A stretch of DNA of 55,798 bases from Glomus cerebriforme (Eukaryota; Glomeromycota; Glomeromycetes; Glomerales; Glomeraceae): positions 1 to 55,798 of the forward strand of contig QKYT01000488.1 of NCBI GenBank assembly GCA_003550305.1. The letters run 5' to 3'. Below are positions 5,433 to 42,714 of this stretch, piece after piece. Within the stretch, counting starts at the first letter, position 1; each line of letters starts with the position of its first letter. Below the pieces are notes generated by a model that saw nothing but the letters and a program-made list of their open reading frames with translations, did no database searches and was not told the DNA's origin. The position numbers were made by a program, and so were the translations under genes.

Positions 5433-6694
5433 ATGTCTGAGCCGTGGATTGAGGATGCTATAAACCATCAACATATTCAACTATTTAATTATGAAGATTT
5501 TAAGAACGCAGAATGTTTTAACGAAGGTGGATTATCTGATATAAAATGTGCGGATTGGCAATATTCAGATAAATTAGTTGTAATAAAGAAATTAAAAGAT
5601 TACGATATTCAAGAATTTGTACAAGAAGTAACTTGTTTGTTATTTCTTATTTTATTCTGTTTTTTAAAAAAAAAAAAATTATTAATTTTATAACAATTAA
5701 TGCGTAGGTAAAAATGCATATTTCATGTCATTGGAGTGAATATGTTATACGATTCTTTGGATTAACAAAAGGTTAATTTAAATAACTATTTTCTATATCA
5801 ACAAGTTGGGACGCAAGAATTTATTCCCATTTTTGTTTTAACAGACGACGAAAAATTTATGATGGTCATGGAATATGCCAACTTTCATAGCCTTCGAAAT
5901 TTTTTGAAAGTTAAAAAAGAACATATCGATTGGCAAATCAAATATAAACTTTCGTATGACATAGTCAAAGGACTTAATTGTTTGCATTCACGTGATATCA
6001 TTCATCGTGACCTGGTGAGATTAAATTAACTTCTCGTACTGTATATAATTTAATTTTAACTTTTTTTTTTTAATAAAGCATACTGAAAATATAGTCATAA
6101 ACCAAATACATTGGAATAAAGATAAGCCTGAGTTTATAGCACAAATCACTGATTTTGGTGAAGCAATATCATCAGAAAGCGTAATCGATACTGATTATGG
6201 CCGTTGTCGACCCGAATTCACCGATCCTAATTATTTAGACAATATGGCAAAAAAAACTTATAAAAGAAATGAAAAATCAGATATTTACAGCTTAGGTGTC
6301 ATTTTTTGGGAAATATCATCTGGTAGAATACCATTTGAAAATTTTATGTGTAAATTTCAAAATAAAACTTTATATTTATCATTAAATATAATAAATGGTA
6401 AACGTGAGGAAGTGCCCGAGATATCAAATTATTCACTTCTTTATACAACTTGTTGGCGTAAGGATCCAATAAAACGGCCGACACTTAAACAAATTATCGA
6501 AGTTTTAAGTAAAATCGACGATATTTCTGTCAATGATGTAAGAAACATTCTAGATATAGGAGGTAACCCTTTTTTATTTTATGTTATCGATTAAATAATC
6601 ATTATAAATTAAAATAACAATTAATATTAACTATTTAGATAATAGTAATGAAACAGATAAATCGAATTGGTTGGAAATTGATAATTATTGCTAA
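5433..6694 (+). CDS. TKL-type protein kinase, single domain (gene A)
   Basis: Exons 5433-5627, 5708-5771, 5845-6014, 6079-6562 and 6639-6694 join to a 322-residue protein kinase. The kinase fold fills almost the whole chain. The glycine loop is EGGLSD (about 31-36), the ATP lysine is in VVIKK (K52), and helix C has a glutamate at about 65. The catalytic loop is HRDL followed by HTENIVI (D142, N147), then DFG at 168-170, and the C-lobe has SDIYSLGVIFWEISSG. All key catalytic residues are present, so an active Ser/Thr kinase is expected. Intron phases are 0, 1, 0 and 1, exactly as in genes B and D. The short tail after the last intron is hydrophilic. The gene is convergent with B, with only 121 bp between the stops. 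The substrate is unknown. Expansion of such kinases is known in arbuscular mycorrhizal fungi. Confidence 0.9.
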
Positions 6695-6815
6695 CTTTTA
6701 ACTTTTAGATTATAGAGTAAATCATCTAATGTAGCGTATCAATTCTTTCCAGAAACGTTCTACTATACATTATATTTTGTATTATAGCGCTATTTTGTAA
6801 TAACAATCATTTATT

Positions 6816-9153
6816 TTATAATTGGTTATTCAATATGTGAAAGTTTTTATATACATCTTCAATACTTGGTCTGTCTAAACTATTTTTATCCCAACATTTC
6901 TTATAAAGATCTATATATTCAGCAGGAATATCAGGAATTTTAGAAATATCATCTTCTCTGTGACCTTCTTTAATTTTATGAATTAATTGTACAATTCCTA
7001 TATTTTTATCTTTTGAATATGGTACTTGTTCACTCATGATTTCCCATAACAGACTTCCTAAACTATATATATCCATAGACTTCCTTTTTTCAAAATGTTC
7101 ATTTAATAATGAATCTGGATCGAGATATCCAATTTTTTCAAAATAATGCTCATCAAAATATATGGATTTCTTCTCATATGGTAATGGTAAATCAGAGATA
7201 TTGGCGATTCCATCAAACATAAGAATATTTTTTGGATGCTATAATTTAAAAAAATTTTAAATTAAAAAATTTCATTATATTAAGATTAACTTTATTACTT
7301 ACTAAATTTTCATGAATAATATTATGTTCATGTAAAACTCGTATTCCATTTGTTATATCTGTTGCAATTTTAATCTTTTCCTTTAAAGAATAATTTTTAC
7401 TTTTTAAATAATCTCTTAAATTGCCTTCAGCCAATGGTGTAATTAAAAAAAATTTATTTTCATCTATAAATTAAATAAAAAGGTCACCAATATTCCTTAA
7501 TAAAACATTCACTTATTTTTTTTATAATAAATACCTTTATAAATTCCCAAAAATTTGATAATATTATTACATTGTTTACTTAACAAATTATTTAACTGAA
7601 ATAAAATTTAATTTATTAATAAAAAGAATTTAAAAAATAACAATATTCCATTACTTACATTTATTGTAATTTTATTATCGTGTAATTTTTTGATTATGAC
7701 TTTATTATTATTATTTGTTGGCATTTTTCCAAAGATAATATTATTGTGACTACAATTAAACTTTTTTGTATCAGTTATCTGATCTTTATTAAACAGTCCA
7801 AATTTACTTTTGGTAATATCGATATTTTCATTTTCGTCATCATCTTTGTCAATATTAAACTTTTCTTCTCTTTTTGAAATATTACCTGATGTTGATGCAT
7901 TATATGCATTATTATCTTTTTCATTTATATTTTTGTTAATATAATATTCGTTTTTGCTTTTATAAAAATCACTATGATCTAAATATGGATTGAATTAATT
8001 ATGAATTTTCATATACCAAATAGTATTTAATAAATAAATAAACAATAAACTTAACCTGTTATAATTGTGTTTAAAGTTTCAATAACTATTTTAATATTAG
8101 GTCGTTCAGATGGATCTTCATCCCAGCAGCGGACATAAAGTTTAACAAAATCATTTGGAGTACGAAGAACTTGACGCTCACGAAGCCCGCTTATTATTTC
8201 GGACGTCAAACGTAGATCTCTAAAATCGCCACGGGAATCTGGCATAAAATTTTCAAAAGGACTTCTACAAGAAGAAATTTCCCAGAAAATCACACCTAAA
8301 CTGTAAATGTCAGATCGTAAATTTTTTCTATAATTTCTATGGTCATCCAAGTATTTAGGATCTGTGAATGGAATTTGACCAATAACTCCAGTAGTGTCGT
8401 TAACATCATCTTCATCCATCATTATTGCACTACCAAAGTCAAAGATCTTTGCTATATATTCAGGTCGTTCACAGCTATGTACTTGGTTTATTACTACATT
8501 ATTACTATGCTTTATAAGGAGGAAGAAAAATTTTAGGCATTGGATTATGATAAAATTTACTTTGAAATTAATTTTAACTTACCAAGTCACGATGAGCGAT
8601 ATTAAGTAAATGTAAATAACTGAGTCCTTTAGCTATATCTAGAGACAGTCTTAATTTATCATCCCATTCAAGATTTGTACTTTTCTGCAAAAACATTCTT
8701 AGGTTGTTCCGGTCGGCATATTCTAATACCATTATATATGATGTTTCTGATTCTCTTTCTGTAAAATTTAAATTTAATTTAAAACTTTATAAACTATAAT
8801 GTATATAATTAAGCCTATTTATACCTTTAGTCAGTCCTAAAAATCTTACAATGTTTTTACTCGAATGAACCATAATGTGAATTTGCACCTAAAAATGATA
8901 GTTAGAGTGACACCTGAAGAGTGGTTTCAAATGTTTTACAAGTACATGAAAAGTAATTTACCTCCGATACAATTTTATCCACATTATAATACTTCATTTT
9001 CTTTAAAGCGACCTTTCTATTTGTACTAGGCCAATCTGCACTAGCAACTTGACTAAATCCACCATTATTTCCAATATATTTTATATTTTTAAAATCATTG
9101 TATGAATATTTTTGAATATATTTATTTTTTATAGCGTTGCTAATCCAAGTCAT
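6816..9153 (-). CDS. Tandem kinase-pseudokinase protein (gene B)
   Basis: Eight exons (9153-8962, 8888-8825, 8758-8583, 8509-8056, 7978-7659, 7595-7535, 7463-7303, 7238-6816) give 616 residues. The first domain (about 10-290) is an intact kinase: loop NGGFSQ, VALKK (K51), HRDL (D143) and DFG (168-170). A low-complexity Asn/Lys/Asp-rich linker follows (about 296-390). The second domain (about 390-612) keeps VIIKK but has HENL where HRDL should be (473-476) and SDL in place of DFG (491-493). It is therefore a predicted pseudokinase. The order kinase-then-pseudokinase is the reverse of animal JAKs. The start is the first ATG in frame; the frame is open further upstream without an ATG. The second domain is very close to the C-terminal domain of gene E. 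The likely role is a kinase held or scaffolded by its own pseudokinase; this is inference. Confidence 0.85.
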
Positions 9154-9701
9154 CGTGTCGTTAATCAAAAGTCATTTCCTCAATTTTTAAGTTGATTACA
9201 GATGTACACGTGAAATCGCGTGGGATCTAATCCTATCATAACTCAGCTTCCCAGGTATAGGTGCGTCAATTGACTTATCCATCAATATAGCCACACGAAA
9301 TTTATAGGAAAAGGTTTGATACAAAAAAAACCAGAAAGAATCGTTTTTAGCAATATATAAAAAACCGGAATCCATTAGAACTAGAAGTTTTTGAAAAAGA
9401 TTTCATTATAATCTCTTTATAGTAAACGGTAAAAAGTGTTAAAAAAAAAATCATGCAACGGACAACTAACGGACATTATTTCCGATCATAAACAAAAAAT
9501 TTTGGAAATTTTAACAATGTCCATCATTTCATTTATGGAACTTTTCAATCGGAGTACGGAATTTAGTAAAACATCCAAATTTGTAAGTATTACAAACAAA
9601 TTGAGGAAAGTGAAAGTAAAAAAAAAAAAAACTATATAAAGTCTGACCGTTGGTCGATTAAAAAAAGTAATTTTTTTTAACAAATTTCGTAAATTATAAA
9701 A
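9154..9701. promoter_or_regulatory. Divergent promoter region between genes B and C
   Basis: This 548-bp interval separates the divergent start codons of B and C. A TATATAAA box at 9633-9640 lies about 60 bp before the C start. On the minus strand CTATAAATTTC near 9312-9302 is a possible TATA box for B. CACGTG occurs near 9207. Short open frames here overlap on both strands and are not credible genes. Confidence 0.5.
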
Positions 9702-12081
9702 ATGACGGAAGAAATTGTTCGTGTATCAGTTACGGCAATGAAGAATGTGAATGATGCGGTAGGACCATTCTTACCATTCGTAACTTTAATAACAGGATTA
9801 ACAAAAGAAATAGCAGAAGCATATGAAAATGTTCAATATAATAAAAAAACATGTGGAACATTAGTGAATAGAGTAGAAGCAGCAGAAGCAGCCATTAAAG
9901 GATTAATGAGACAAAAAGAAGAAAATATTGAAAAATTTTGTAGTCAAGATTATTATGATTCATTTTTAAAATTTGTGAATTGTTTAAAACATATAAAAGA
10001 ATTTTTTTATGATATATCACAATTATCAAAATTTAAAAAATTTTATACTAGTGGTAATATTAAAGAAACTTTTGAAAGGATTATAAAAGAATTTGATGGT
10101 TGTTCAATAGATTTAAATTTAGCAATTTCTTTAGCTACAAATGATCAATTAAATAAGGATTTAATAATTTTACATTCTGATATTATTGAAATGATGAAAT
10201 TTTTGGATAATGTTGAAGGTGGTATCACTTCCATTGATAATCAAACCAAAGTAGTTATTACTAATGTTAATGAAATTCACATTCAAAATCAAGATATTAT
10301 TATTAGAATAAATAATATTGAAGAACAAAATAATAAAATTATTGAACAAAATAAAAAAATATTAGAATATGAAGATAAACATGAATCACTTGATTTTACT
10401 CCTCTCAACACTGAAATTGAAACCATTTCTATCTTAAATAAAGAAGTGAATAATCAACATTCAAAAATTGATGTTAAAGCTAAACGAATTGATCCTTCGA
10501 AAATTAAAGATAATCCACAATATGTTGCACGTAAAGGTAGTAGAATAACTATTCAGAAAAGAATTTATAAAGAAATGGATGTTGCTTGTAAACCGATCTC
10601 AATGGATAATATTCAAAGAATTCAAAAACATCTTGCAATTTTAAAAAAATTGGATGCTTGTCATTATATTATTCAATTTCATGGTCTATCAGAAATAAAT
10701 GGTGAAAATGTAATGATTTTTGAATGGGCTGAATTTGGAAATTTAAGAGAACTTTATCAGCAGTATAATATTGAATGGAATGCAAAGATTTCTATCGCAA
10801 GGAATATTTGTCGAGGTTTAATTTTTTTACATACGGGTATGTTTGATTCTTCTTTTTTTCCTTTAATTAATAATTGAAATCAATTAATTAATTAACCTTT
10901 TAAATTATAAACATCTTGTAGTGGAGATTTTGCATCATGATATTAGATGTGAGAACGTGTTAATTACTGAAAATATGCAACCTAAACTTTGCAATTTCAA
11001 ATTTTCTCGTGAATTTAATGCTGCTACCATTCCAATTGATGATATGAATGATATAATACATTGGTTGGCTCCTGAAAAATTGAGTCATATATCCACCACT
11101 GAAAAAGATTCGAAAAAAGCTAATAAAAAACAAGATGAAGCTAGTTATACTATTCAATGTGATATTTTTAGGTTGGTGAATTTATTATTTAGAATTATGA
11201 TATTAATGTTTTTTTTTTTTTTTACATATTTAAAGAATTATTATTATTATTTTTTTTTTAGTTTTGCAATGCTTCTTTGGGAACTTGGTTTTCAAAAGAA
11301 ACCTTACGAAAATATGAACATGTCTCAAATACAAAAACATGTATTAAAAGGTGGTAGAGAAATCTTGGATTTTGGATTAAATCCTAATTCAATGCAAAGT
11401 GAATATCGTACCATTATTGAACTTGCATGGGCACAAGAACCATCATTACGACCAGGAATTCAACATATTTTTAATATGTTACAAAATTTATATGAGAAAC
11501 ATGTATTACAAAGAGGTTCTCCTTCATTACAACCAAAAATGGATGAATTTGATGAAAATTTACAAAATTTAACAGTTCCTGATATTGGACACATTTCTAA
11601 AGTTACTCCATTAATTCCATTTAAAGAAGGTTTATTAGCTCATAAAGATAAAAATTATGAAAAAGCTTGGAAATGTTTTGAAGAACATGCAAAAGTTGGT
11701 GATATATTAGCAAAATATTGGCAAGGTTATTATTATTTAGAAGGAAGATTTGTTGAAAAAAATTATCAAAAAGCTAAAAATTTATTTAAAGATGCAGCAG
11801 ATGGTGGAAATGCTGATGCTCAATTACGTTATGCTTTTTGTTTAATTGATAAAGAAAATGATAATATGGATCGTGATAATTTCTTAAAATATTTAAAAAT
11901 GTCTGCTGATAAAAATAATCCTACTGCACTTTATAATCTTGGTGAAATATATTTTCAAGGTAAAATGGGTATTGAAAAGGATAAAAACAAAGGTATTCAA
12001 TATTTAAAATTGGCTGCTTTACATAATCAACCTAAAGCAAAAGAAATTTTAAATGATTATCATATTAATTTATATTCTTAA
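9702..12081 (+). CDS. MLKL-like helical domain + pseudokinase + Sel1 repeats (gene C)
   Basis: Exons 9702-10836, 10922-11171 and 11262-12081 give 734 residues. Residues 1-165 are an all-helical region resembling the MLKL N-terminal (HeLo-like) four-helix bundle: a hydrophobic first helix (GPFLPFVTLITGLTKEI), then Cys/Leu-rich helices. A long helical brace/coiled coil follows (about 170-225, NNIEEQNNKIIEQNKKI). The kinase-like domain (about 265-540) keeps a VACKP lysine (K297), but HRD is HHD (383-385) and DFG is NFK (403-405), with no clear glycine loop. It is therefore a predicted pseudokinase. Residues 582-730 hold about three to four Sel1-type repeats (e.g. GDILAKYWQGYYYLEGRFVE). The second intron is in frame and T-rich; removing it restores the continuous DIFSFAMLLWELGF motif. 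Helical bundle plus pseudokinase is the MLKL order. A membrane-active or death role is inferred only. Confidence 0.85.
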
Positions 12082-13347
12082 ATTTATATAAATTATTTAT
12101 TTATTTATTTTTAAAATTTTTATATATTGTATTTTTTTTATATCGAATAACCTAATAATTTGAATAAATAATTGAATAAGTATATAACTGTGTATTGCTG
12201 CATGTTTGTTCAATGTGAACGCGTACAAACGCGGATCAAATAAATGTTCAATCATATTCTATATTACACTAATTCAACAAATTGATTAACTTTATTTTAT
12301 CGCAAATTCCTTTACTATGCAAACTTTAGAACTCTATATAGTGTTTACTCGAGCAGATTTTAATACTTGGTAGTGTTAGAAATCTAAGGTCGCTAATACG
12401 GTTTTAAATATAAATTTAACAGCTGCTAGTTACGTTTATAAGCAGAAAATGGTACGCTATGGTATTTACGCGACTATATTTATTAAACCTTATTAGAGGT
12501 TCTACTTTTTTCATCTTGAAAAAACTCATTAGACTCATTACTGAGATCATGTTTATAATTCAAATCATAAAAGGAATAAGAAAGTAATAAGAAAAGAATT
12601 TAGTTTTTTTTAATCAAAAAACAAAATTGGTTGCAAAATGATTCATATTCAATCCCATTTCTACTCATTCTTTGATATTTTTTAAAATTGAAAAAAGTCC
12701 AAAGCAATCATATTTAGCCAACTGTACTCGGAGTTAAGGAACCTGCAATACTTTTTTTTTTATAGGAAGACTTACTTATATGACGTAAGTCAGTAACGTA
12801 AAGGAAACGTAATCGGATGTAGTATTGCGAATTGCGATCCGGATGAATCTGATCAATCAGCCGGTTAATCACGTGTTGGCTCCATACGGGATAAAAAAAA
12901 AAATTCAATTCGCACCTGATTGATTAGCGTATTTTCGTCTGAAATAAAAATGAGCCACCCGATTGATAGATTGACGGTCAGAAAAAATTCCCTTCCCTTT
13001 CTTTAAACACCTTCCAAGGACTGTTCCATCAGTTCCGAAGTGAAAGGGTTCCTAGTTCCTACAAAAGTAAAAAAAAAAAATAGATCGGAACTTTTTTAAT
13101 AATACGTAAATTATACATATCTTATTAAATCTTTATAAATTTTTTTTAATACATTAAAATATTTTATAATTGAATTCATCCGGTGAAGGATCCATCCGAT
13201 CAATCTGTTTATGGATGCATCAGATATCCGGATTGATCGAATTCGGATCGCATCGAGATTGTGAAACACTACATACAATAAACTATAAATAGGAAGTTTG
13301 TAAATGTAATTTTTTTGGTTCTTGAATCAAAATATGCTACAAAAAAT
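12082..13347. other. Intergenic region C-D with inverted-repeat island
   Basis: No gene was found. From about 12820 to 13260 the base composition is richer in G+C, with repeated CCGGAT and GATC words in both orientations: GCGATCCGGATGAATCTGAT near 12834, and the opposite sense of it near 13215-13250. A TGACGTAAGTCA palindrome lies at about 12780-12791. The island could be a decayed inverted-repeat element or the upstream regulatory region of gene D. Confidence 0.4.
13284..13292 (+). promoter_or_regulatory. TATA box of kinase gene D
   Basis: TATAAATAG, identical to the element before gene A, lies 55 bp before the gene D start codon. Confidence 0.5.
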
Positions 13348-14745
13348 ATGTCTAAAGGGACTGAATGGATTACGAATGCGATAAATAATCAATATATTCA
13401 ACAATATGAATATTCAGAATTTAAAAATATAACTAAATTTGAAGAAGGTAGATTCGCTCATGTTAAGTATGCAGATTGGCCATGTTCGGGAAGAAAGGTA
13501 GCAATAAAGGAATTAAAGTCTTATGATGTACAAAAACTTGTAGAAGAGGTAAATTTAAAACAAAAGAAAGTTTTATTTTTAAAAATTTATTATTTTTATT
13601 ATTATTATTTAACCACTTAAAATTTTAATAGGTGAAAATCCATTGTTCAAGTCATTCAAGCAAACACGTTGTAAGATTCTTTGGTTTAACAAAAGGTTAG
13701 ATTAAAAAAAAAAAAAAGTTTTGAGTTTTGCATTTTTCATGAGTTCGAAGCGTATAAATTGAAAAAATTACAGCTCCGTCTAATAATAGATATATGATGA
13801 TAATGGAATATGCTGACCTTAGAAGTCTTCGAAATTTTTTGTCCAAAGAACATGTAAATATTAGTTGGCAAACCCGATATAAACTTTCACTTGATATCGC
13901 TAAGGGACTTTATTGTTTACATTCTCGTAATATCGCTCATTGTGATTTGGTAAGATCAAAATTATTTTATTTAGTAATTCAATCATATATCGTAATCCCA
14001 ACGTCTAACATTTATAGGTAATTTTTTTTTTTTTATGAAGCATACTAGTAATATAGTAATTAAACGAACAAACGCTGAAACAACTTGTTGTCATTCAGAA
14101 TTTATCGCACAAATAACAGATTTTGGCGGAGCAATATCGATGAAGGAAAATGTAACCGGTGATTCTGAAGACGTTGGTCAATATACATTCACAGATCCTA
14201 AAATATTAAATGGTTTAGGTAAATATAAAAAGGATTTACGTTCGGACATTTATAGTTTAGGAGTTATATTTTGGGAAATTTCATCTGGTAAAATTCCATT
14301 TAAAAGCTATAAGCCAGAAACTAACGATAGCCATAGAGACCTATGTTTAACATTAGCTATAATAAATGGATTACGTGAAACTCCAACTTGTTCAACTCCT
14401 AAAAATTATATTGAACTTTATAAAACTTGTTGGGAATATGAACCATCTAAACGACCAATGATTGAAAAAATTATTGAAACTTTAGAGACTCTTAAACGAA
14501 CTTATAGAAAAGGTAAAAATGTAACAAGAAATTTTTTGTTTAATCATTTTTTAAACTATTTTATTAATTATTTTATTTTATATTTAATTAATTATGGTAT
14601 AGATTTAAATAATAATAGTAATGTTTTAGTTAAGAACCTTGGTGAGCTGGATAATAATGATAATAAATTGGGACAGAGGAAAGGAGTAAAACGTTTCGCG
14701 GAAGTATCTTTTAAAAGCCAAGAAAGTAAAAAGGTAAAAGTTTAA
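13348..14745 (+). CDS. TKL-type protein kinase with HCD catalytic loop (gene D)
   Basis: Exons 13348-13548, 13632-13695, 13774-13949, 14041-14512 and 14603-14745 give 351 residues. It is a paralogue of gene A and of the first half of B (shared WITNAIN, YADW and SDIYSLGVIFWEISSG motifs). The ATP lysine is K54 (VAIKE), DFG is at 174-176, and the catalytic Asp is D146. The HRD arginine is replaced by Cys (HCDL), which may change activation control but does not by itself abolish catalysis. The last intron (14513-14602) is 90 nt and open in frame, so an unspliced form would add 30 hydrophobic residues. The C-terminal tail is basic (RKGVKRF and KKVKV near the end) and could be a nuclear localisation signal. 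The first ATG (13348) is used; the frame continues upstream without another ATG. Confidence 0.85.
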
Positions 14746-15430
14746 TTAGAGTTTATTGTAAATTATAATAAAGAAATTACTTTATTTTAATACATAATAA
14801 AATACACAATAAAAATAAAATTTACAAATTTGGGCAAATATGATAATTTTCTATGGTACACTGAGTAACTTATCGTTTAATATCAAAGGTTCCAAAGCTA
14901 TTGATCCTTTTGATCCTTTTTGTGCCCATCTATTATAGCAAACGAATTTAGCACAAATGCACTAGATTTAAAGTATATGTAGTAGAAGCTGACACAGAGT
15001 TAAAGTTGATTTTTCCCACAATACATTCATTTTGAATTGAGAAAAAATTAACTTTGGCATTACACGAAATAAAAGTTATACAGACTAGGAGAAATATTCC
15101 TTCAAATTGTTCTTAGTGATATGTAAAAACTGTAATAGAATTAACTCTACTACCGTAGACTACTATACAAGCAAATAAATAAAATAGAAGGAATAAATAT
15201 AATAATAACAAATTATGATAAAGAATGAATTATATATTACAGATTTACCTTTAGGGGCAAAAAAAAAAGAAAATTATTATTAATGAATAAATATACTAAT
15301 ATTGACAATAATTAAGTAAAAATATATTTACTGAAGGTATTTTTGAACATAATATATTATGTATGTGGTATTCTCTCTCTTCCTTATTTCTTGATAAACC
15401 TATTTTGCTTCAAACTTGCTAGCTTCTTTA
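14746..15430. other. Convergent spacer between D and E
   Basis: This is the 3' flank of both genes. It contains AT-rich DNA with AATAAA-like words near 14800 suited to poly(A) signals. No coding frame or repeat was recognised. Confidence 0.4.
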
Positions 15431-17962
15431 TTATTCATCAGGAAAAAATTCAGGATTAGACACAATTTCTAAATAAAAATAGAAAATTAAAATATGATTT
15501 AATTAAATTTACCTTTATCCAAAAGTATTTCGTAAACATCTTCAATTTTTGGCCTAGCTAAACTATCACCATTCCAACATTTTTTATAAATATTAATATA
15601 TTCACATGGAGCAGAACTTATATCTTCTTCTCTATAACCATTATTTTTAATTTTGAGAACTAATTGTAAAATACCTTCATCTCTATCTTTTGAATAAGGA
15701 ACTACTTCACTCATGATTTCCCATAAAAGGGTCCCTAAACTATATATATCCATAGACTTATCTTTTTTAAAATTTTCATTTAATAACAAATTTGGATCAA
15801 TATATCCAATATTTTCAAAGAGATATTTGTCATAATATGAGAATTTCTTCTTATCATATGGTAATGGTAAATCTGAAATTTTAGCAATACCATCAAACAT
15901 AAGAATATTTTTCGGATGCTATAATTTAATATAATTTAATAAAATTTTTTTTTGAAATTTTTCGATTTTATTAAATATTACTTACTAGATTTTCATGAAT
16001 AATATCAAGATCTTTATGTATATATAATATTCCATCTGCTATATTTGTTGCAATTTCAATCTTTGACTCCAAAGAGCGTTTTTGATTTTTTAAATAATCT
16101 CTTAAATTGCCTTCGCGGGCATATGGTAATATTAAAGACATTTCGTTTTTATCTACATAATAATTTAAAATAATTAGTTTAGACCCAATTTGAAATGATT
16201 TAATAAGCATTCAAATAAAAAATTATTTATTACCCATGATAACTCCCAAAAATTTCACAATATTATCGTGATATTTACATATCGCATTCCAATTTTTCAG
16301 CTAAAATAAATAAATAAAAGATTAGATTGAAAAAAAAGCCGAAAAAAATATTATAATTATTTTTTTACTTGCTTGTTTTTGTAATATCGATAATTGAGTT
16401 TCATTTTTTAATTTTTTAATAATTATTTTAATGTCCCTATTACGTGATTCCATTTTAGCGGAACTAATATTATTAATATAACTATCACTAAACATTTGTA
16501 TATCGATGATTTGATCTTGATTAAAATTATTAATTTCATTTTCAGTTTGAAATTTTTTAAATATATGCTTATCACCTTTAACAGGATAAAAATTTATATA
16601 ATTATAATTTATAAAATCATCTAAAGCTAGAATCAAAATTATTCAATCAGTCATTGGAAGATAAAATCTTAAATTATTAACAAAAAAGACATAACTTACC
16701 ATAATAAGATATTGATCTAACTGATTTTATAGACTTCAATAATAATTCTGAATCTTTGAATAATAATATAATTAGATAAAGAAAAAAGATTATTTAGATT
16801 GTGATCATTAAAAAACTTACATGAAAGAAAAGAGGGTGCACAATATTCGAGTGAATTCTTATAAAGTCTTTCCGATACACATGACATATTTTGGAGTTCT
16901 TGTTTATCATCCAAAGAAAAGTTATAATATTGAAATTCATATATTGAGTTTTGTAATAAAATATTTTCTAATTCATTTATTGTAGGGCGATTACAAGGAT
17001 TTGTATTCCAACATTTAAAAATTAATTCTTTGAGAAAATATGGAACGTTGTGTAAAAATTTTGGTCGAACACCATTAATAATTTCATTTGTGATCTGTGA
17101 TTCATCCTTGATACCAGCAAATGGTTCTTGTTCAAAAATTATTCTATAAAAAATCATCCCAAGTGTAAATATATCGGATGATTGATCATTTTTCCTTTTT
17201 TTCTCTCGTAAAATTTCAGGAGAAGTATATGCTATATTAATCTCTTGTCCAAAAATATAAAATTTTACATCTATTTTGCCAAATCGATTAATTAATAAAA
17301 TATTTTTAGGATTAAAATAATTTATGCTAATATTGTTATCATAGAGGTTTTTTAATTTAGTTACTATTTTTTTTATTGTGTAATGTTTTTCGTTCCAATC
17401 CAATGTTTTTTCCAAATGTTGATCAAGAAATTTAAAAATTTCATATCTAATAACTAAAACATATTCTTTTCTTTTTGGATCTAATGAAAGTCCATATAAT
17501 CTAATAATATTTGATTTATCAGTAATCAAATAATTTTTTAACTAAAATAAAATAAAATTAAGATTAAAAAAATCATATCAAAAATTTTGTTGCAAATAAT
17601 AATAATAATAATTTTAAAACCTGGAAAATAACTTTCTGTAGATTTTCTTCATTGATATATTGCAAACCAACTTCATCATTTCCGTACCGTTTAAATCCAT
17701 TCGAATAACTTCGATGAATACATCCATCTATCCAATGTGCTTTATAAAATTCTCCGAAACCAAGATATTTAAAGTTTTTTAATTTATTATAATCTATCCA
17801 TTCTAATATATCAAGATAATCAATTGCTTCAAATTGAGATTTTTGAATTATCTCATCTATATATACATTTCCACTAGTCCATTTGTCATATTCTTTTTTA
17901 AGTTGTTCTTTAAGTATAGTTAGATTTGACCAAGATTCTGCATCAGGTGAATTCAACTGCAT
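15431..17962 (-). CDS. Double pseudokinase protein (gene E)
   Basis: Eight exons (17962-17621, 17541-16821, 16753-16700, 16626-16373, 16300-16234, 16152-15986, 15918-15513, 15468-15431) give 682 residues. Domain 1 (about 65-300) aligns with kinases in its C-lobe (YTSPEIL, SSDIFTLGMIF, CWNTNPCNRPTI). It lacks a VAIK lysine, has NYF for HRD (188-190) and IFG for DFG (210-212). Domain 2 (about 440-668) is a close relative of the B pseudokinase: IKIIIKKL is kept, HENL replaces HRDL (532-535) and SDLPLP replaces DFG. Neither domain should transfer phosphate. The exon ending at 16373 needs a GC-AG intron (donor GCAAGT) to stay in frame; the alternative GT donor 4 nt on gives a stop. It is convergent with D and divergent from the peptidase gene. 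A scaffold or decoy role is inferred. Confidence 0.8.
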
Positions 17963-18740
17963 ATTAATTATATTATTATTTTTTTTTTTTTGTGGATAAG
18001 ATAAAAGGATAAAAAAAAACGATCTGTTCAGTCAATTTGTCAATTTATAGTAGCTATCACGTGATATCCTTATTTATTTATACCACATTATTTTATTATT
18101 TTTAGCCGGAATTACGGCATTAAGAAGTTATCAACAAATTAATGGTCATGTCACAGGTTGAAAAAAGTTAGGGTCTTGGGGAAAATTCATTGGCCTTATT
18201 GCGGAATAATTAGTGCACGGGTTTGCGATTTAACGTAATCGAGAGATTTAAATTGAAAAAAATTAAAACACGAGAAATAAAATATATAATGCATTTATTT
18301 ATTTACTACAACAAGGTTGTAAAGAATCAAAATCACATTGTTTTACAAATCCAAGTATGGTAATAATATAATCGATTTAGAATAGGAGTGGTAATATCGG
18401 AATTATCGAATTCTTTGTCATTTAAGAATACTTGGAGGAAATATATTGGATTGTTTTCATTATAAAAAAGGTATTTTTATTAATAATGACATTAATCACA
18501 TATTAAATACATATTTAATTTGTTGCTTGGCACTTTATCTATTAACATAAAAGAGATTTTTTCGTTTAAAAGAAAATTCAAAAATTTAATTTTTTTTAAC
18601 ATTAAAATTTTTTTCTTTTTAAAATCAGGAAATACGATCTTTTTTTTGAAATCTAAACTATTTTTAAATCAAATAATTTAATAATTCATTGACACAACAA
18701 ATACAAAATGCAATAACAGATAATAATATCATTATTCAAT
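17963..18740. promoter_or_regulatory. Divergent promoter region between gene E and the peptidase gene
   Basis: The region separates the two start codons by 778 bp. ATCACGTGATA lies near 18056-18066. The stretch 18100-18260 is less AT-rich than the rest; beyond it lie T-rich tracts. No coding exon was seen. Confidence 0.4.
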
Positions 18741-20249
18741 ATGAGAATGAGATCAATTGTAGTGATATTATCGATATGGATTACATTTATATCATTTATA
18801 GTTAACGCAGAATATTGTTTTGATCCAAATATATTAGATTCAAGAGGAGGAAAAGTAGTGAATTGTGCATTGGTCACAGAAATAAAGTCATTGCTAAAAA
18901 ATCAAAACGAACGATATTTAAAATCACCTACACAAAATGTAAATATGTTTGAAACAACTTTACATTGTTCTTCTACAGAAGAAATTTGTACAAAAGTAAA
19001 AGCATCATTCGATTTAGCAGGAGAAATACTTTCTTCAACAATTCATTTTGTTGAAAAAATAAAAGTTAATGCAACATTTAAACCATTATGTGAAAAAAAA
19101 GGACATTGTGAAGACGAAGAAATATTAGGATCGGCTGGTCCGATAAGATTTCATCCTATGATTGATGATGATGATATGGTTAGATTATATCCACAATCTT
19201 TAGTTAAACAATTTCAATATCATACTCATTTAGAATATTCTCAATATGATATTGGTGCTATTTTTAATAGTGAAGCAAAATATTGGTTCGGTAATATTAA
19301 TAACAGCAATAATAATTATAATATCGGTATTGAGAAAAATCAATTTGATTTTTTATATATTATATTACATGAATTAATTCATGGATTAGGATTTGGTTCA
19401 AGTTGGGATCAATATTATATTGGATTAATTACTCCACTTATCATTAATAAGTTTAATGGAATTAGTGTTAATATTGAATCAAATGATAATAATAATAATT
19501 ATAATAAAGGAAAAGTTAAATTTGTTGAATGGGCTTTTGATAAATATGTAATATTAATGGGAAATGGAACAAAAGTATCTTCAATTACACAAGAATTAAA
19601 TAAATTTTTTGATCAAAGTTCATTGGATAATGTAGAAATTACTCAAAGAGATTTTGAAATTAATTTTCATAATTCTAAACAATATAATATTGCTAAACAA
19701 ATGTTTGATATAGCTCAAACTCCTAATACTATCGGATTTTTATCAAAAGAAAATAATAATAATTCAAAAGAAAAAAGAGATTTAAATAAAGATATTGTAC
19801 TATTAGAAACTTCTTTTAATCCATTTAGAGTTGCTAGTAGTATAAGTCATATTGATAATTCTCTTTATTCTAATACTGAGGATTTTTTAATGAGACCTAT
19901 TATTATGAATGGTGTTACTCTTCAACAAGAAATTATTAATGGTGGTAATTATTCTGGTGGACCTATTGGTCCTAAACTTAAACAAATTCTTGCAACATTA
20001 GGGTAAGTAATTACAAAGTCAACTAAAAAGATATTTTTTTTTTCAAAAATATTAATATTCTTTTTTTATATATATATATACAGATATTTAACAAAAGATA
20101 ATCCAACCTTTTACAACAAACCAAAAGTTATTGATCCTGCTTTAATTAATATCTCTTCTATTGCTGTTTCTTTAAAGAATAATATTTATTATATAGATGT
20201 TGTATTTACTTTATTAATTACTTTAATTTTGCATTTATTACTTCAATAA
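18741..20249 (+). CDS. Secreted HExxH metallopeptidase-like protein
   Basis: Exons 18741-20002 and 20084-20249 give 475 residues. An N-terminal signal peptide is clear (IVVILSIWITFISFIVNA, cleavage near 23-24). Residues 210-223 read HELIHGLGFGSSWD, a zinc-peptidase HExxH helix followed by the glycine turn of metzincin-like enzymes. The canonical third metzincin ligand position (HExxHxxGxxH/D) is Ser; D223 three residues later might take its place. Asn-rich loops interrupt the domain. The C-terminus ends in a hydrophobic segment (about 453-474: VVFTLLITLILHLLLQ) with no cytosolic tail, suggesting a GPI anchor or tail anchor at the cell surface. Paired Cys residues in the first 125 residues fit an extracellular protein. 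I recall similar proteins in fungi and bacteria but cannot name the family with certainty. Substrate unknown. Confidence 0.8.
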
Positions 20250-34328: not shown

Positions 34329-37300
34329 TTAAAATTCCCAAGTTAAATTCCAAGATTGATTTAAATTTAAATCTAAATTAGATAAAATTAATTTTTTAAA
34401 ATTATTATTAATAATCCATTTATGATGATGATGAAATATTTCATTATCATTTAATAAAATTTTTTTAATAATAGGTTGATTTTTTAAAATTCCCATAATA
34501 ATAATTTTATCTAATTTAGTAATAAGATTATAATTATTTTCACATTCATTATATAAATCATTATTATTAATATTTGTATCTTTTTCTTTTCCTTTTTCAA
34601 ATCCTTTCTTATAAAGATCAAGATCACATTGTGATGTTAAAGTATTATTATTAACCATAAAAGTTAAATAAGTAAAATTTTTTCCAACATCAATACTTTC
34701 ACCATCATCTAAATAAAGAGTTCCTTTAGCATACTCATTTTCATCTAACGCGATCATTAAATAATAATTATTTCTTTTAGTAGCTGCAGTTGTTAATTCA
34801 GGATATTGCATAGGTAAAATAAAACCACCTCTAATGAATATAGGTAAAACTTCTAAAGGAGCGTATAAATCAACAAATTTTCCATTTAAATTAGTAATAT
34901 TAAAACTTAATTTTTCTTCATAAAAATCATACCATAATCCTGGTGGAATTAAAGCTTTAATATTATTAGTTTTTTTATATAAAACTGGTGATAATAATAA
35001 TCCTGAACCTATCATAAATTGTTTATCAATTATATAAGTATGTTTTGATGATGGAAATTCAAAAAATAATGGTCTCCATACTGTTAAACCTTTTAAATTT
35101 GATTCATAAAATAATGTATAATAATATGATAATAATGAATATCTTATTTTTAAAAATTTTCTTGATATTTTAGCTACTGAAGGCCATAAATATGGTTCTT
35201 GACTAGGTTCAAGTAATCCATTATGATTTCTCATAAATGGATAAAATGATCCAAGTTGCATCCATCTCAAACATAATTCTTCAGTTGTCCTTCCAACAAA
35301 TCCACATATATCTGCACCAACTAATGGTATCCCAAATAGCTAATCAAATGGAAAGAAAAATTTAAAGTAATTAATTTTATGATTAAGAATCCTAAATTTT
35401 ATAAAAATTACAAACCTGAAAGTTTAAAAGGCCAGGAATAGAAAAGTAAAGGTGATCCCACTAAAAAAAAAAAAAAAAGAAAATGAAAAAAAAAAGTTAA
35501 TAATTAGATGGTAATTCAACGTAAGTAAAAAAAAACGCGAAAAATCAATACCCACATTTGACCAATTGTCACCGGTCCAATGTCCAGCATATTTCCCAGT
35601 ACCAGCAAAGCTAGATCTAGTGATAATGAATGGTCTCTTTCCTTTCCTAATTCTTTTTGATAATATATTATATGTTATCATACTTTCCATGTGACCATAT
35701 AAATTATGAACATCATATTCAAGGAATCCATTACTATGAACGGCATCCATTGATAATGTTTTTTCATCTAAAGGTAACCTTACACCCCCATTATTAATCT
35801 TATATGGAGGATTATTTAGATCATGATGTCGAGTATTGATGGTGATATTTTGATCATTTATATTCTGTTGAATAACATTTGCTTTTTCGTCAATTACACA
35901 TTCCCCTCGACACCAACTAGAAACCTCATTCATATCTATCCAAATTCCATCGACTGCAACATTCTTTAACCATTTTTCATATAAATCTCCCCAATAATAA
36001 ATAATATTCTCATTAAACCAATCAGGAAACACTGTTAATCCTGGCCAAACGCGTCCCACAATATTTTCTCCTTTTGAATTCTTGATGAAAACATTTTTAT
36101 TGATACCATCTTCATAAGGATAATATCCTGCCTCAATTTTAATACCAGGATCAACAATAACAACGTAATGTTGTTCATTCTCATGTAACTTCTTAACAAA
36201 GTTTCCTATTTCATGACGCGAAAAGTTCTCGGAATCCCATGTAAAATCCTTGAAATCTTGCATATAATCTATATCCGTCCAAATTGTTTCTAATGGAATA
36301 TTCTGTGATTTAAACTCCGATACCACCTTTTCTAATGCTTTCACATTATTATACCCCCATCTACATTGATGATATCCGAGAGCCCAATACGGTGGTAATG
36401 AAGGTCTTCCAACAACCTAAAAAAGAAAAAAATTTTGAGATTAAAATTTAATATTAATAATAAATATTTTTCTTAATTTTATTACTAAACCTTCGTATAC
36501 TGAGCAATAACGTCTGAAGGTGTTGGTCCAAGAAATATATAAAAATCAAAAATTCCTCCTATAACTTTTTTACAGCAAAAAAAAAAAAAAAATTTAATAT
36601 TGAAATTTAATATTAATAATAAATATTTTTCAATAGTAAATAAATGAATGCTCATTTTTTACCTTTCCAATTCAATTTAGCAACATTTCCCGGAGTGATG
36701 GTCACATCCATTCCATTTGAATTTCTCAAAAACACGCCATGAGCAGTACCGTTTCTCATTTCTAAATAAAATGGTTGAGCTCCATAACCGTTTTCTGCAA
36801 CGGGAGTTGCAGCATCTCTATTCCAGATAGTTTGAAAAGTTCCACGAGGATTTCTCCGAAATGTATCTACTACTTCACCTAATCCATAAATGAATGGATC
36901 TTGTGGTAATTTAAATGAGATTTCCATATATTGATCCTCAAAAATTAATGTATTCATTCCAGGAACATCAGTATCAATGATCTTTTCTCCTGTATCAGCT
37001 CGTGCAACTGAAAAAGTAAATTGATTTTCATTATATAAAAAATTGTAAAGAATATCATCGGTTATTGATTCTAATCCTGAAACAGGAACAATTTCTTCCG
37101 GAATTTCAAATCTCCGTTCTTTCGGATCATAAATTTTTACATGCAGTCGATCCTCAGTCTCATACTTTAAAAAGTTAAAAGATAATAGAATTTAACCAAA
37201 AATATTTAATTTTATACATTTACTTTTTGTATCGATTAACTTACCTCAACCAATAATTTCAAATGTTTTGAATCATGCCCATAAAGTCCACATCCAATTC

Positions 37301-37796
37301 CATTCAATTCAAGATCCGCAATAAGAACGCGATCATTATTACGTTTTTTAGTATTAACCACTTTATAACCTTTACAAGGCTGAGTCTTATAATAACAATA
37401 ATTTCCACCTATAACATCTGTAGGATTCCAACAACAATTTAACTTGTTAACGCATTCATCCTTCTGAATTCCCAAATATCCACAATCAACTCTTGTAGCA
37501 GGGTCAATATTACAAGAGTATGAATCTCCTCTCTTATAAAAACACCATTTATCTTCTGGATTTTCTGATGGACGCCAACAGCAAAATCTTGCTTCACATT
37601 GTTCTTTCGTTATGCCAAAATAACCACAATCATATTTAACATCACTTATTGAACAAATATCTATTGAATCATTTATTAAATTATCGTTTTTTAGTGTTAA
37701 TAGAGGATTTTTTTCATGATTCCATGGTATCCATATCCATGGTAATAACAAGAAAGCTGAAAAAACATTTAATGCTATGAAAAGTACAAATATCAT
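34329..37796 (-). CDS. GH31 alpha-glucosidase with two trefoil (P-type) domains
   Basis: Six exons (37796-37245, 37164-36663, 36564-36491, 36416-35556, 35460-35416, 35339-34329) give 1014 residues. An N-terminal hydrophobic helix (about 2-25, signal anchor or uncleaved signal) is followed by two trefoil domains (about 53-90 and 103-140). Each has the DCGY-GI-K--C and CCW patterns. The GH31 N-domain and barrel follow: DPFIYGLGEVVDTFRRN, IWTDIDYM, the nucleophile in WIDMNE (D537), RSSFAGTG, and the acid/base in HWTGDNWSN (D659). The C-terminal beta domains include LPIFIRGGFILP. Trefoil plus GH31 is the layout of lysosomal acid alpha-glucosidase and maltase-glucoamylase. It should release glucose from alpha-1,4 (and 1,6) glucans such as glycogen, in the secretory pathway, vacuole or wall. 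The fourth intron starts GTGGGT, chosen because it alone keeps the frame. Confidence 0.9.
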
Positions 37797-40700
37797 GGTT
37801 TTTTTAACAAAGGAGAAACTGCTTTTTCATGGACACTGATTTTATATAATGGCTGAATTCGATATTTGCTCGTTTTTGTTTTCCTTCTTTTATACTTTAT
37901 TGGGTTAAAAAACCCTTATTTGTTAACAATAGTTTGAACCGATTTGGTTAGGATCGAGATTTTCCCATGTACAGCATATTTAATTTTCTTGATAATCTCA
38001 ATTTTTTTTTTCTCAAACGAAAACTGAAGTCTAGCCTCATATGTATTTATTCGAGATAAATAAACATCAAATTAATCACAAGATCAAAATAAATTTCTCG
38101 TTACATATTCTGTTTAAAAAAAGCAAGCGTGTTATATATTAGCGAAACTTTGTCAATAATTAAGAGTGCTATTTAAAAAAGAATTATTTGATTTTTAATA
38201 AGATTGAAATCTGAATGGGAGTAGATATGAGGCAAAGATATCAATCTTGAGAGAGACAATTTATTCAAAAAACTTGATTATAGAAAAGACTATTGGACAT
38301 ACAGTATATTTCTCTTGCTATCTGAAAATTCAACCCACATCGAACTTTATTTTTTAACCATGTGCACCACTTTAAAGTAATATTGCAATTTCCAATTAAA
38401 ATTTATCATGTGATCGTGAATTTATCAGACATTCAGACGATCGATTTCCAAGCCACTAAAATTTCAGTGTAAAAAAGATTTTAGATCTGTGGCATTAAAA
38501 ATCTTCATTTAATTACTTTCTCTCAAAATTTCTTACATGAATAGGCCAAGAGTGAAGTTTCTGGAAAAGTTGAGAAAATAGTTCTCCAAGTCGGTTTCAT
38601 TTAGCCCAGGTTGATAGAAATTACGCTGATTTTAATTTCATCCAGTATGACTTGTAAGAATTGTAATTTCCTCCTTGCAATAGGCTCAAAAGAAATAAAC
38701 AAGTTCCTTGAATATAAAGCACCTTGCGGGTACAAGTATTAACACCATGATTACGGCAATGTAACATGTCTAACACCGAGCACACCAGACTCGTTTTATT
38801 TTTGAGCATTTACTTTAATATTCAACAATGGTGGTGGTATTCTAGCTCTTAACCGCCCATTAATAGTACTTGTAAGGGAAATATTCCTTCAGGTAATTTG
38901 TTCTTTTGTTTTAATCATTTTTAACGTTCATATCCTTTTATCCTTTTTTTTTAAGTACATCCTAATAATTTCCCCAGACCTTGCAATATCTTTATGTCCC
39001 AAAATCTATTATTTCTCATCTGGTCCTCCTCCTCCTAGTGACATAAATGTATCTTGAATTTAATACATTTGAATCTTGAATAATATATCTGTCTAGGGCC
39101 AAGATAGTGATTGAACTGGATAGTCATCAATCTACTAGATCCTGGAAAGATAAGTGCGAATTACAGATATAAGTTTATGTATGCTATGATTTAGGTATCA
39201 AACTTCATAGAACAAAGAATATAAGGGATTCGGAATTCCAAAGGGCAAAAGTATAGATCAATAACAGCAAGGTTCTATACTTATTTTCTTTAATCAAATC
39301 CTTTTCCAATATGTATTCTGGTGAGATTACTCATATCCATCATAATATACCAATCCTCAGGCCTTCGGTTATAGAGATTTTTATATTCTACCAACAATTA
39401 CATCTCCTTACTGGATGCTTTATTCAATTTCTACTAAATTTACTATTAATACTATTATTACTTTTATTTAACTTCAGCAAAAGGTCTTAATATTATCAGA
39501 ACAATTGGTTTAATCTAGATATAAAATATGTAATTATTGCTGTATTATATTCTCAAAAGTATTATTTTATAATTTTATCTTATATAATTTTTTAAAATTT
39601 TAAATATTTTATTATAATAATATAATAAATCTTTACCTATATTAGGCTTGTAATAATGCAATATAATACATTAATTACTTTTTGATAATATTATTTTATA
39701 ACTATTTAAATAATAAAGTACTGATGATAATAATTAAATCTATTTATTTTTTCAAATTTTTAATTAATATTTAAATATATATATAATATACAGAAAATTT
39801 ATTATTTATAAATATATAAAATTTTATATTTTTTTTAGCTTTTTTTTTTAAGATAAGAAAATTTATAAGATTTTTAAAAACTATAGAATTTTTTATTTTG
39901 CTTAAATCTTAAATCTAATTATATTATTATGTAAGTTTTACAGTAGAAATTGTTATATAAATTAAAAAAGATAAAGATCACATGCAATACTGCTCCAAGG
40001 CTGTACTTGAAATATATTTAAAAAATATCATATTCGGTATTCTATATCTGATATATTTTATTAATATTATCAAAAATGGTAAGTTGTAAAAGAATCGACA
40101 TTAGCTAATCGACTGATGTTATTTATATGTAATGTCGTGGTATTAAATTATATCACGAGAATGTATAATAAACAATTAACGTCATATGAATGAATAAATA
40201 AAACAAATCCCTTTTCTAAATATTTAAGCCTTAATTTTTTGTAAGCAAGTCATTTATAAGCCAACAAATCCGTTCCGTTCTTCCGAATTAAAACGGGAGT
40301 TCCTTTATAGACATTCAAACAAATGATAGAACAGATAATCAGAATTCTATGTATACAAAATAGTAAATATTAGTAATATCTTCGAAAATCTTGGGCGTAT
40401 TCTACGCGCATTTTGTCTTGTAATTTTGTAATTTTAAATTTGCAATCGGCCATCTGCGGTTGGTTCTTTATTAACAATTAGAGAAACAGCTAAACTTAAA
40501 AAGAATCTAAATTAGTTTCAGGAAAGGTTTAATTCCGCCCACATATGATTATATTATTTATAAAATTTTGTCGATCTATAGTCACACTGCACATACCTTT
40601 TTTTATTAAATTTATTGTGCTTAAATTTAAACCAATAAAAAAAGAAAAAATACCAGTATACTATATATAGTAGAAGAGATGTTAAATGCAAATGCGGTAC

Positions 40701-41166: not shown

Positions 41167-42714
41167 ATGTCGGAATTTTACCAAAGCCTTTCAAAAGATT
41201 TTAGCGTATTACTTGATCATTCGGATGATTATAATGTTATTATTAGAGTCGGAGAAGAAAAAAACGAAAAATCATTTCAAGCTCATTCGGTTATTCTTAG
41301 AGCAAGATCACCATACTTTAGAACAGCATTATCAAATGACTGGGCTAGAAAAGAAGGCAACTCCACAGTATTCTCCAAACCAAATGTTTCTCCTGTTGTA
41401 TTCGAACTTATTCTCAAGTAAGTGTATTTGAAGATGTAAAGCGTAAAAATTCGTTTATTTATGATTTCACCGTGAATGAAATTAACCGTTTTTTTTTACA
41501 ACACTTTTTCTCTTTTGAAAATTAGGTACATATATTCTGGAGCTATAGATTTAAATAATCAAGACCCGTCACATATTCTTGAATTACTTATTGCATCAGA
41601 TGAGTTATTATTGCAAGAATTATTTAATTATGTACAAGATTATTTATTACAAAACAAATCAGAATGGATTAAAAAGAACGTAGTTAGAGTTCATCGTACG
41701 ATAAATCCACATGAGGGATGTAAAAAATTACAAGATTTTTGTTTAGAAACAATTTGTAAAAATCCTTTATTGGTATTTAAATCAGAAGATTTTTCAACCT
41801 TTGAAGAATCATTATTATTACCATTATTATCTCGAGATGATTTACAAACAGAAGAAATTGAAATTTGGGATCATCTAATTCAATGGGGTATTTCTCAAAT
41901 GAATATTTCATCATCTAACGAGTTTGATGATTCTTCTCTTGTCCCCCCTGAAAATATTTCTAAATGGGAGGAAAATGATTTTAAAGAATTACAAAGGATT
42001 TTAAAAAATTGTATACCTTTAATAAGATTTTTTGAAATTTCTTCAAGTGACTTTTATGATAAAGTTTGGCCTTATAATTCAATTTTACCAGAAGATTTAA
42101 AAGAAGATATTATTAAATTTCATTTAAAACCAAATTATAGGACGACTAACCCATTACATAAACCAAGATTAATTCCATTTGATTCAACATTGATAAAACA
42201 AGAACATATAGCAAGATTATGTGATTGGATAGATAGAAAAGATGGTAAACCATATAAATTTGAAGAAATTCCATATAAATTCAAATTATTAGTTAGAGGT
42301 AGCAAAGATGGTTTTGAATCCGAAACTTTTCATGAAAAATGTGATCATAAAGGTCCAACTATTGTTGTAATGCAAATAGCTTATTCAGGTGAATTGGTTG
42401 GTGGTTATAATCCTATTGAATGGACTACTGGAGATTCTCGTATCACAACTCAAAATAGTTTTCTATTTAGTTTTCCTAAACAAGGTAATATCGCAGATGC
42501 TAAATTATCAAGAGTAAGCAGACCGGGTTATGCTATACGTGTAAAAGATAAATCTCATGGTCCTTGTTTTGGTGATAAAGATTTATGGATGAAACATAAT
42601 TTTAATGCTTATGATAGTTGTTCTTCTGATAAAGATGATTATCAAGAAAGAGTGACTACTTTATCCAAATTTTGGGTATTAGAATATGAAGTATTTCAAG
42701 TAGTTAAAAAGTGA
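41167..42714 (+). CDS. BTB-BACK-TLDc protein
   Basis: Exons 41167-41417 and 41526-42714 give 479 residues. The BTB domain (about 5-125) includes DYNVIIRVGE, FQAHSVILRARSPYFRTALS and VFELILKYIYSGAI. The BACK-like helices (about 130-230) include ELLLQELFNYVQDYLL and LEIWDHLIQWGI-type segments. A TLDc domain follows (about 285-478): FKLLVRGSKDGF, FHEKCDHKGPTIVVMQIA, GELVGGYNPIEW, and GPCFGDKDLWM at the end. TLDc proteins are linked to oxidative-stress resistance and V-ATPase binding, and BTB-BACK to Cul3 ligases. This three-domain fusion is greatly expanded in arbuscular mycorrhizal fungi. The intron splits the BTB Lys-Tyr codon pair (phase 2). The ATG at 41167 is preferred over an upstream in-frame ATG because the intervening translation is hydrophobic T-tract noise. 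Confidence 0.9.

Follow-up and report, generated by a model that had tools for sequence, protein, structure and literature searches.

MLKL-like pseudokinases with Sel1 repeats in Glomus cerebriforme and their possible role as fungal executioners

Arbuscular mycorrhizal fungi hold many nuclei in one cytoplasm, and their hyphae fuse. In this work we ask whether a gene of Glomus cerebriforme encodes a relative of the MLKL proteins of animals and plants and, if so, what such a protein may do. The gene lies at 9702-12081 on the forward strand of contig QKYT01000488.1 (GenBank assembly GCA_003550305.1; contig C620 here), and the window denotes the whole stretch of 55,798 nucleotides that was analysed. 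A first-pass annotation of the window had described a four-helix-like domain, brace and pseudokinase extended with Sel1 repeats, and had proposed a fungal executioner or sensor. We conclude with high confidence that the N-terminal four-helix bundle is homologous to the executioner domain of MLKL, and regard the anatomy and this homology as settled.

Gene structure and the N-terminal domain

Open reading frame and splice checks resolve the gene into three exons separated by two GT-AG introns (10837-10921 and 11172-11261), with a spliced product of 734 amino acids that is identical, letter for letter, to the G. cerebriforme protein record P0001. The order first described (helical N-terminus, brace, kinase fold with HHD and NFK, Sel1 repeats) is present in full in this product, so the MLKL-like layout stands; the interval as a continuous reading frame does not, since the two introns interrupt it. 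The parts of the gene are as follows, A3 being a protein alignment described below.

9702..10836, + strand: exon 1, four-helix domain, brace and beginning of the kinase N-lobe (spliced reading frame)
10922..11171, + strand: exon 2, pseudokinase region with the catalytic and activation loops (spliced reading frame)
11262..12081, + strand: exon 3, kinase C-lobe, Sel1 repeats and stop codon (spliced reading frame)
9789..10145, + strand: MLKL_N (PF22215) match, residues 30-148 (Pfam, structure model)
10140..10466, + strand: brace-like helices 147-171, 178-223 and 233-255 (structure model, parts at low confidence)
10470..11511, + strand: kinase fold, residues 257-545, across both introns (Pfam, structure model)
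10590..10592, + strand: beta-3 lysine K297, in VACK (Lys in 44/45 readable A3 rows)
10933..10941, + strand: HHD at the HRD place, residues 383-385 (Asp in 43/45 readable A3 rows)
10993..11001, + strand: NFK at the DFG place, residues 403-405 (Asn in 45/45 readable A3 rows)
11026..11028, + strand: activation-loop Thr414, candidate phosphosite (Thr in 43/44 and Ser in 1/44 readable A3 rows)
11620..12057, + strand: Sel1-type helical repeats, residues 582-727 (Pfam, structure model)

Several lines of evidence identify the N-terminus. Pfam places MLKL_N at residues 30-148 with 35.7 bits (threshold 27) and E 7.6e-9, the structure model folds the region into helices at 16-42, 48-70, 82-106, 108-117 and 120-137, and a sequence-profile search of the PDB with the N-terminus finds MLKL at 3.9e-8. 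In fold searches with the N-terminus, ranks 1-8 are occupied entirely by MLKL executioner domains or whole MLKLs, both in Foldseek and in a second aligner, where they include the plant protein AtMLKL2; the region is thus an MLKL-type bundle and not an unrelated fold. Fold searches with the full model are dominated by the kinase domain and are uninformative on this point. Brace helices are modelled between the bundle and the kinase domain, with parts at a predicted local distance difference test (pLDDT) score below 60. At the other end of the protein, Sel1 (PF08238) is matched in two stretches (45.3 bits against a cut-off of 30.7, E 1e-11), and the region is modelled as a helical block at pLDDT 82-96. 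Sel1 repeats are platforms for protein binding.

The first-pass annotation had named both MLKL and HeLo families as targets for profile matching, and it was borne out for the former. For P0001 and the 46 + 29 members scanned, Pfam listed no HeLo, SesA, Goodbye or HET family, in a kind of scan that remote matches escape; the link demonstrated is therefore to MLKL_N itself. Fungal HeLo, HELL and Goodbye domains, the basidiomycete MLKL_NTD of nucleotide-binding leucine-rich repeat (NLR) proteins and HET-S are described as a common superfamily of helical-bundle cell-death domains (PMC9815663, PMC12881547), from whose members the present proteins differ in that Pfam lists no HeLo, SesA or Goodbye family for them and, for P0001, no NLR part.

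Animal MLKL (PF22215; PDB 4btf, 2msv, 6zvo) has the same order of four-helix executioner domain, helical brace and pseudokinase. By comparison, the fungal protein adds a Sel1 tail and an N-terminal extension, its DFG place reads mostly NFx (GFE in one copy), and dozens of copies occur in the G. cerebriforme genome. The Sel1 tail likewise sets it apart from plant MLKL (AtMLKL2, AtMLKL3) and wheat Pm13, which belong to another kingdom.

The pseudokinase and its family

The kinase domain matches PK_Tyr_Ser-Thr (residues 290-534, E 1.3e-31). Within it VACK retains the beta-3 lysine, HHD retains the catalytic aspartate and NFK replaces DFG, so that the Lys, HxD Asp and DFG Asp of an active kinase do not occur together. 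These substitutions are a property of the family. In A3, a MAFFT alignment of 46 of the 85 proteins fetched (without partial, fused or short records and alternative models), the DFG place is occupied by Asn in 45/45 readable rows, with the beta-3 Lys in 44/45, the HxD Asp in 43/45 and the Asn that follows it in 43/45; the lysine figure rests on A3, as this residue is unreadable in 44 of the 92 rows of a profile alignment of all 85 proteins. In the profile alignment, whose counts are not independent because a single gene is in part represented by several models or strain copies, all 62 readable family rows have another residue in place of the DFG Asp (60 Asn, one Lys in P0029 and one Tyr in P0077). 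DFG itself appears in two more rows, which represent additional, separate kinases close to the N-termini of P0022 and P0077. GxGxxG was found in none of 23 close homologues within the 30 residues ahead of the lysine motif. The alpha-C Glu, present in 4 of 70 readable rows of the profile alignment and visible in some genome copies, is kept out of the argument because the alignment there is unsure.

The assembly searched comprises 112.5 Mb in 1117 contigs, and the genome searches report the best-scored candidates only. Among the matches listed, Pfam found 29 MLKL_N loci, and the DFG place is readable in 28 of them: Asn in 25, Gly in one (L012, as GFE), Arg in one (L022) and Asp in one (L017). 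GFE is also what human MLKL has at the DFG place. The exception, L017 (+ strand, from C302:387127; L017:5128-6870), joins MLKL_N to the pieces GVGSGHFGSV, VVFKK, HEIQM, HRDL, TDFGYA and VAPE; it adjoins, and is divergent from, a pseudokinase copy, and has no Sel1 match. An intact HRD/DFG kinase, which the first-pass annotation had named as the finding that would count against it if kept by the closest relatives, thus occurs in one distant paralogue of the same genome, the close relatives having lost the DFG Asp in every readable row.

Two protein queries against the genome listed 61 and 59 matches, which include pieces of single copies as well as broken copies. Of the 29 loci found by Pfam, 26 carry Sel1 repeats downstream; L015 and L017 (+) showed none, and the second copy at L006 runs off the fetched stretch. 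A tree of 30 N-termini pairs the window gene with Rhizophagus irregularis P0004 (support 100/99), a pair joined by L004 and L008 (99/96) and then by L003 (100/99). Homologues with a named source belong to Rhizophagus, G. cerebriforme and Funneliformis, plus a single partial sequence from Acaulospora, and a broader spread is possible as the homology search depends on shared exact words. Five Sel1-less proteins (P0005, P0006, P0008, P0011, P0012) carry a strongly hydrophobic C-terminal tail (best 19-residue mean 2.4 to 3.3), perhaps a substitute for Sel1 that anchors the protein in a membrane, or else a translated intron; P0011 and P0012 look like two models of one gene. Annotations P0027 and P0030 fuse the domain to unrelated sequence, and P0021, P0022 and P0077 may therefore be merged neighbours too. 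Decayed copies were also seen: a broken MLKL-like N-terminus with many stops at C339:83274-83991 (-), about 2.5 kb from the L008 gene, and a degenerate second copy with N-terminal and kinase fragments at L021:111-1143 (-), beside an intact one.

A previous report describes MLKL homologues with Sel1 as found exclusively in Glomeromycotina (PMC8778642, 2022; TCDB 1.A.105), probably the same family as ours; the text examined from that report gives the family two sentences, one more on its abundance and a table line, and shows no analysis of structure, motifs or individual genes. Another source states that fungi and plants have MLKL homologues and names one from Basidiobolus (PMC11476962). The literature searched, mostly without subscription journals and preprints, yielded no fuller treatment of the Glomeromycotina MLKL-Sel1 family.

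Kinase genes nearby and other genes of the window

Six further kinase-like genes surround the MLKL-like gene (5433-17541), and three of them bear DFG, with the following pieces by Pfam and translation.

5433..6594, + strand: kinase gene pieces with VVIKK, HRDL and ITDFGEA
8054..9153, - strand: kinase gene head-to-head with the MLKL-like gene, exon pieces GNNGGFSQV, VALKK, HRDL and IFDFGSA
13348..14745, + strand: kinase gene pieces with VAIKE, HCDL (HCD for HRD) and ITDFGGA

The start codons of the head-to-head pair are 548 bp apart. Two other genes, 6819-7994 and 15502-16642 (both -), have ISDLPLP in common at the DFG place and look like duplicated pseudokinases with no four-helix domain; the sixth, at 16720-17541, is degenerate.

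Linkage was examined with 59 N-terminal loci, broken copies included and the window contig excluded. Matches to the flanking kinase 13996-14640 within 10 kb of these loci number 7 in 5 clusters against 1.3 expected (Poisson 0.0004), a figure weakened by the clustering of matches and by the choice of a query kinase beside an MLKL-like gene; at 20 kb the count is 8 against 2.35, and at 5 kb 1 against 0.7. One further match (C804), probably the locus's own domain, was set aside. General PF07714 matches are not clearly enriched (2 against 0.67, 3 against 1.26 and 4 against 2.26 at 5, 10 and 20 kb). Apart from the query itself, the top three matches listed for the flanking kinase comprise two within the window and a third at C339:78219, some 8 kb away from the MLKL-like gene of L008 and 5 kb from the broken copy. 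Separate kinase pieces lie nearby in 3 of the 26 stretches L001-L026:

Near L010, - strand: HRDLHTGNI
Near L011, + strand, about 0.4 kb upstream: ADFGLS
Near L020, - strand: HRDLHPGNI and SDFGFC

In the 10-kb flanks of six loci, 4 of 12 contain kinase pieces (L027, L031, L033, L034), and those of L027 and one of L031's look like parts of MLKL-type copies. In R. irregularis, kinase and Sel1 genes are reported as high-copy and unevenly placed, in broadly expanded families (PMC8647823).

Elsewhere in the window we observed an alpha-glucosidase-like gene (34329-37826, -) with a trefoil-like Cys pattern by eye, a BACK-TLDc protein (41476-42714, +), an anoctamin piece (45620-46186, -), a serine carboxypeptidase S28 (47772-49022, -) and a 429-residue open frame (18717-20006, +) with a zinc-protease-like motif by eye, HELIHGLGFGSSWD, and no Pfam match at 0.001. 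Contigs C36, C980, C726, C765, C1049, C1007 and C133 of the assembly give strong kinase matches interrupted in frame by 1-8 TGA codons and by no other stop; these may come from an organism in which TGA encodes Trp (e.g. Mollicutes-related endobacteria) or from decayed genes.

Possible functions and their significance

We consider the best explanation, evenly poised in our judgement, to be a fungal MLKL-type protein with a restrained-bundle mechanism. At rest, the brace and pseudokinase would hold the four-helix bundle; an upstream tyrosine kinase-like (TKL) kinase, perhaps a linked one, would phosphorylate the activation loop, where the nearly invariant Thr414 is a candidate site; the freed bundle would oligomerise and permeabilise the membrane, and the Sel1 repeats would dock a partner or adaptor that sets the place and time. 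RIPK3 phosphorylates human MLKL at Thr357/Ser358 (PMC11476962). So large a number of diverged copies points to recognition of numerous different partners or threats, for example viruses, endobacteria or non-self hyphae during fusion. A role in cell death and heterokaryon incompatibility may be inferred; a role at hyphal fusion would be a guess. The whole architecture may share an ancestor with animal MLKL or be a new assembly from a local TKL kinase.

A number of observations weigh against this explanation. Foldseek E-values for the N-terminus range from 0.011 to 0.16 in ranks 1-8, its model has a predicted template modelling score of 0.60, and helical bundles easily reach a high Z in fold comparison. 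The kinase domain shows no preference for MLKL in its scores (CTR1 57.4 bits, MLKL 4btf 56.7, RIPK2 53.1), the fold search of the full model is headed by TRK and BTK kinases with MLKL absent from the matches listed, and pLDDT falls below 50 over the activation loop (405-418). In HeLo-type killers the N-terminal helix is a key element for membrane targeting (PMC10197012), and in the 46 A3 rows 3 to 133 residues (median 51) precede the equivalent of MLKL residue 1. Kinase linkage to the MLKL-like genes is partly enriched, a mixed result that is a lead only. The retained beta-3 Lys and HxD Asp could, judging from sequence, allow nucleotide binding or residual catalysis. An atypical kinase still active without the DFG Asp, to which the conservation of these residues and of the next Asn in A3 would point, is nevertheless very unlikely given the loss of that Asp throughout the readable family rows and the missing GxGxxG.

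The long and variable N-terminal extensions would also suit a non-killing signalling scaffold, in which bundle and brace oligomerise or recruit to a membrane, the pseudokinase acts as a switch and Sel1 assembles a complex, for instance in stress or symbiosis. Sel1 repeats are known to bind proteins, and R. irregularis has broadly expanded families of both kinases and Sel1 proteins (PMC8647823); however, the N-terminus resembles MLKL in particular, not coiled coils in general, and is followed, as in MLKL, by a dedicated pseudokinase, and we regard a scaffold as somewhat unlikely. The protein could instead be a kinase-fusion sensor or decoy, a reading also discussed for wheat Pm13, with MLKL_N and Sel1 baiting or guarding a partner and a pseudokinase that relays to a real kinase. 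Such a role would accord with a diverged multi-copy family and with L017, which is paralleled by wheat Pm13, an MLKL_NTD protein whose key kinase residues are said to be kept and whose role as killer or sensor is left open (PMC10951266). This we consider quite unlikely, as the DFG Asp is lost in 27 of 28 readable genome copies and no target is known. A more elaborate form of the MLKL-type explanation, in which linked TKL kinases with DFG, together with one or more intact MLKL_N-kinases, activate diverse MLKL-Sel1 pseudokinases in a RIPK3-MLKL-like manner and so police hyphal fusion, viruses or endobacteria, is tentative and rather unlikely as a whole.

The kinship of this large fungal family to MLKL looks real, and its members may, by analogy, kill. 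With the full MLKL architecture present in Glomeromycotina, the range of phospho-switched proteins of the MLKL type would extend over animals, plants and a fungal lineage that branched off early. An experimentally tested cell-death executioner of arbuscular mycorrhizal fungi did not turn up in the literature searched; the MLKL-Sel1 family offers directly testable candidates for such executioners, and the neighbouring kinases are candidate activators.
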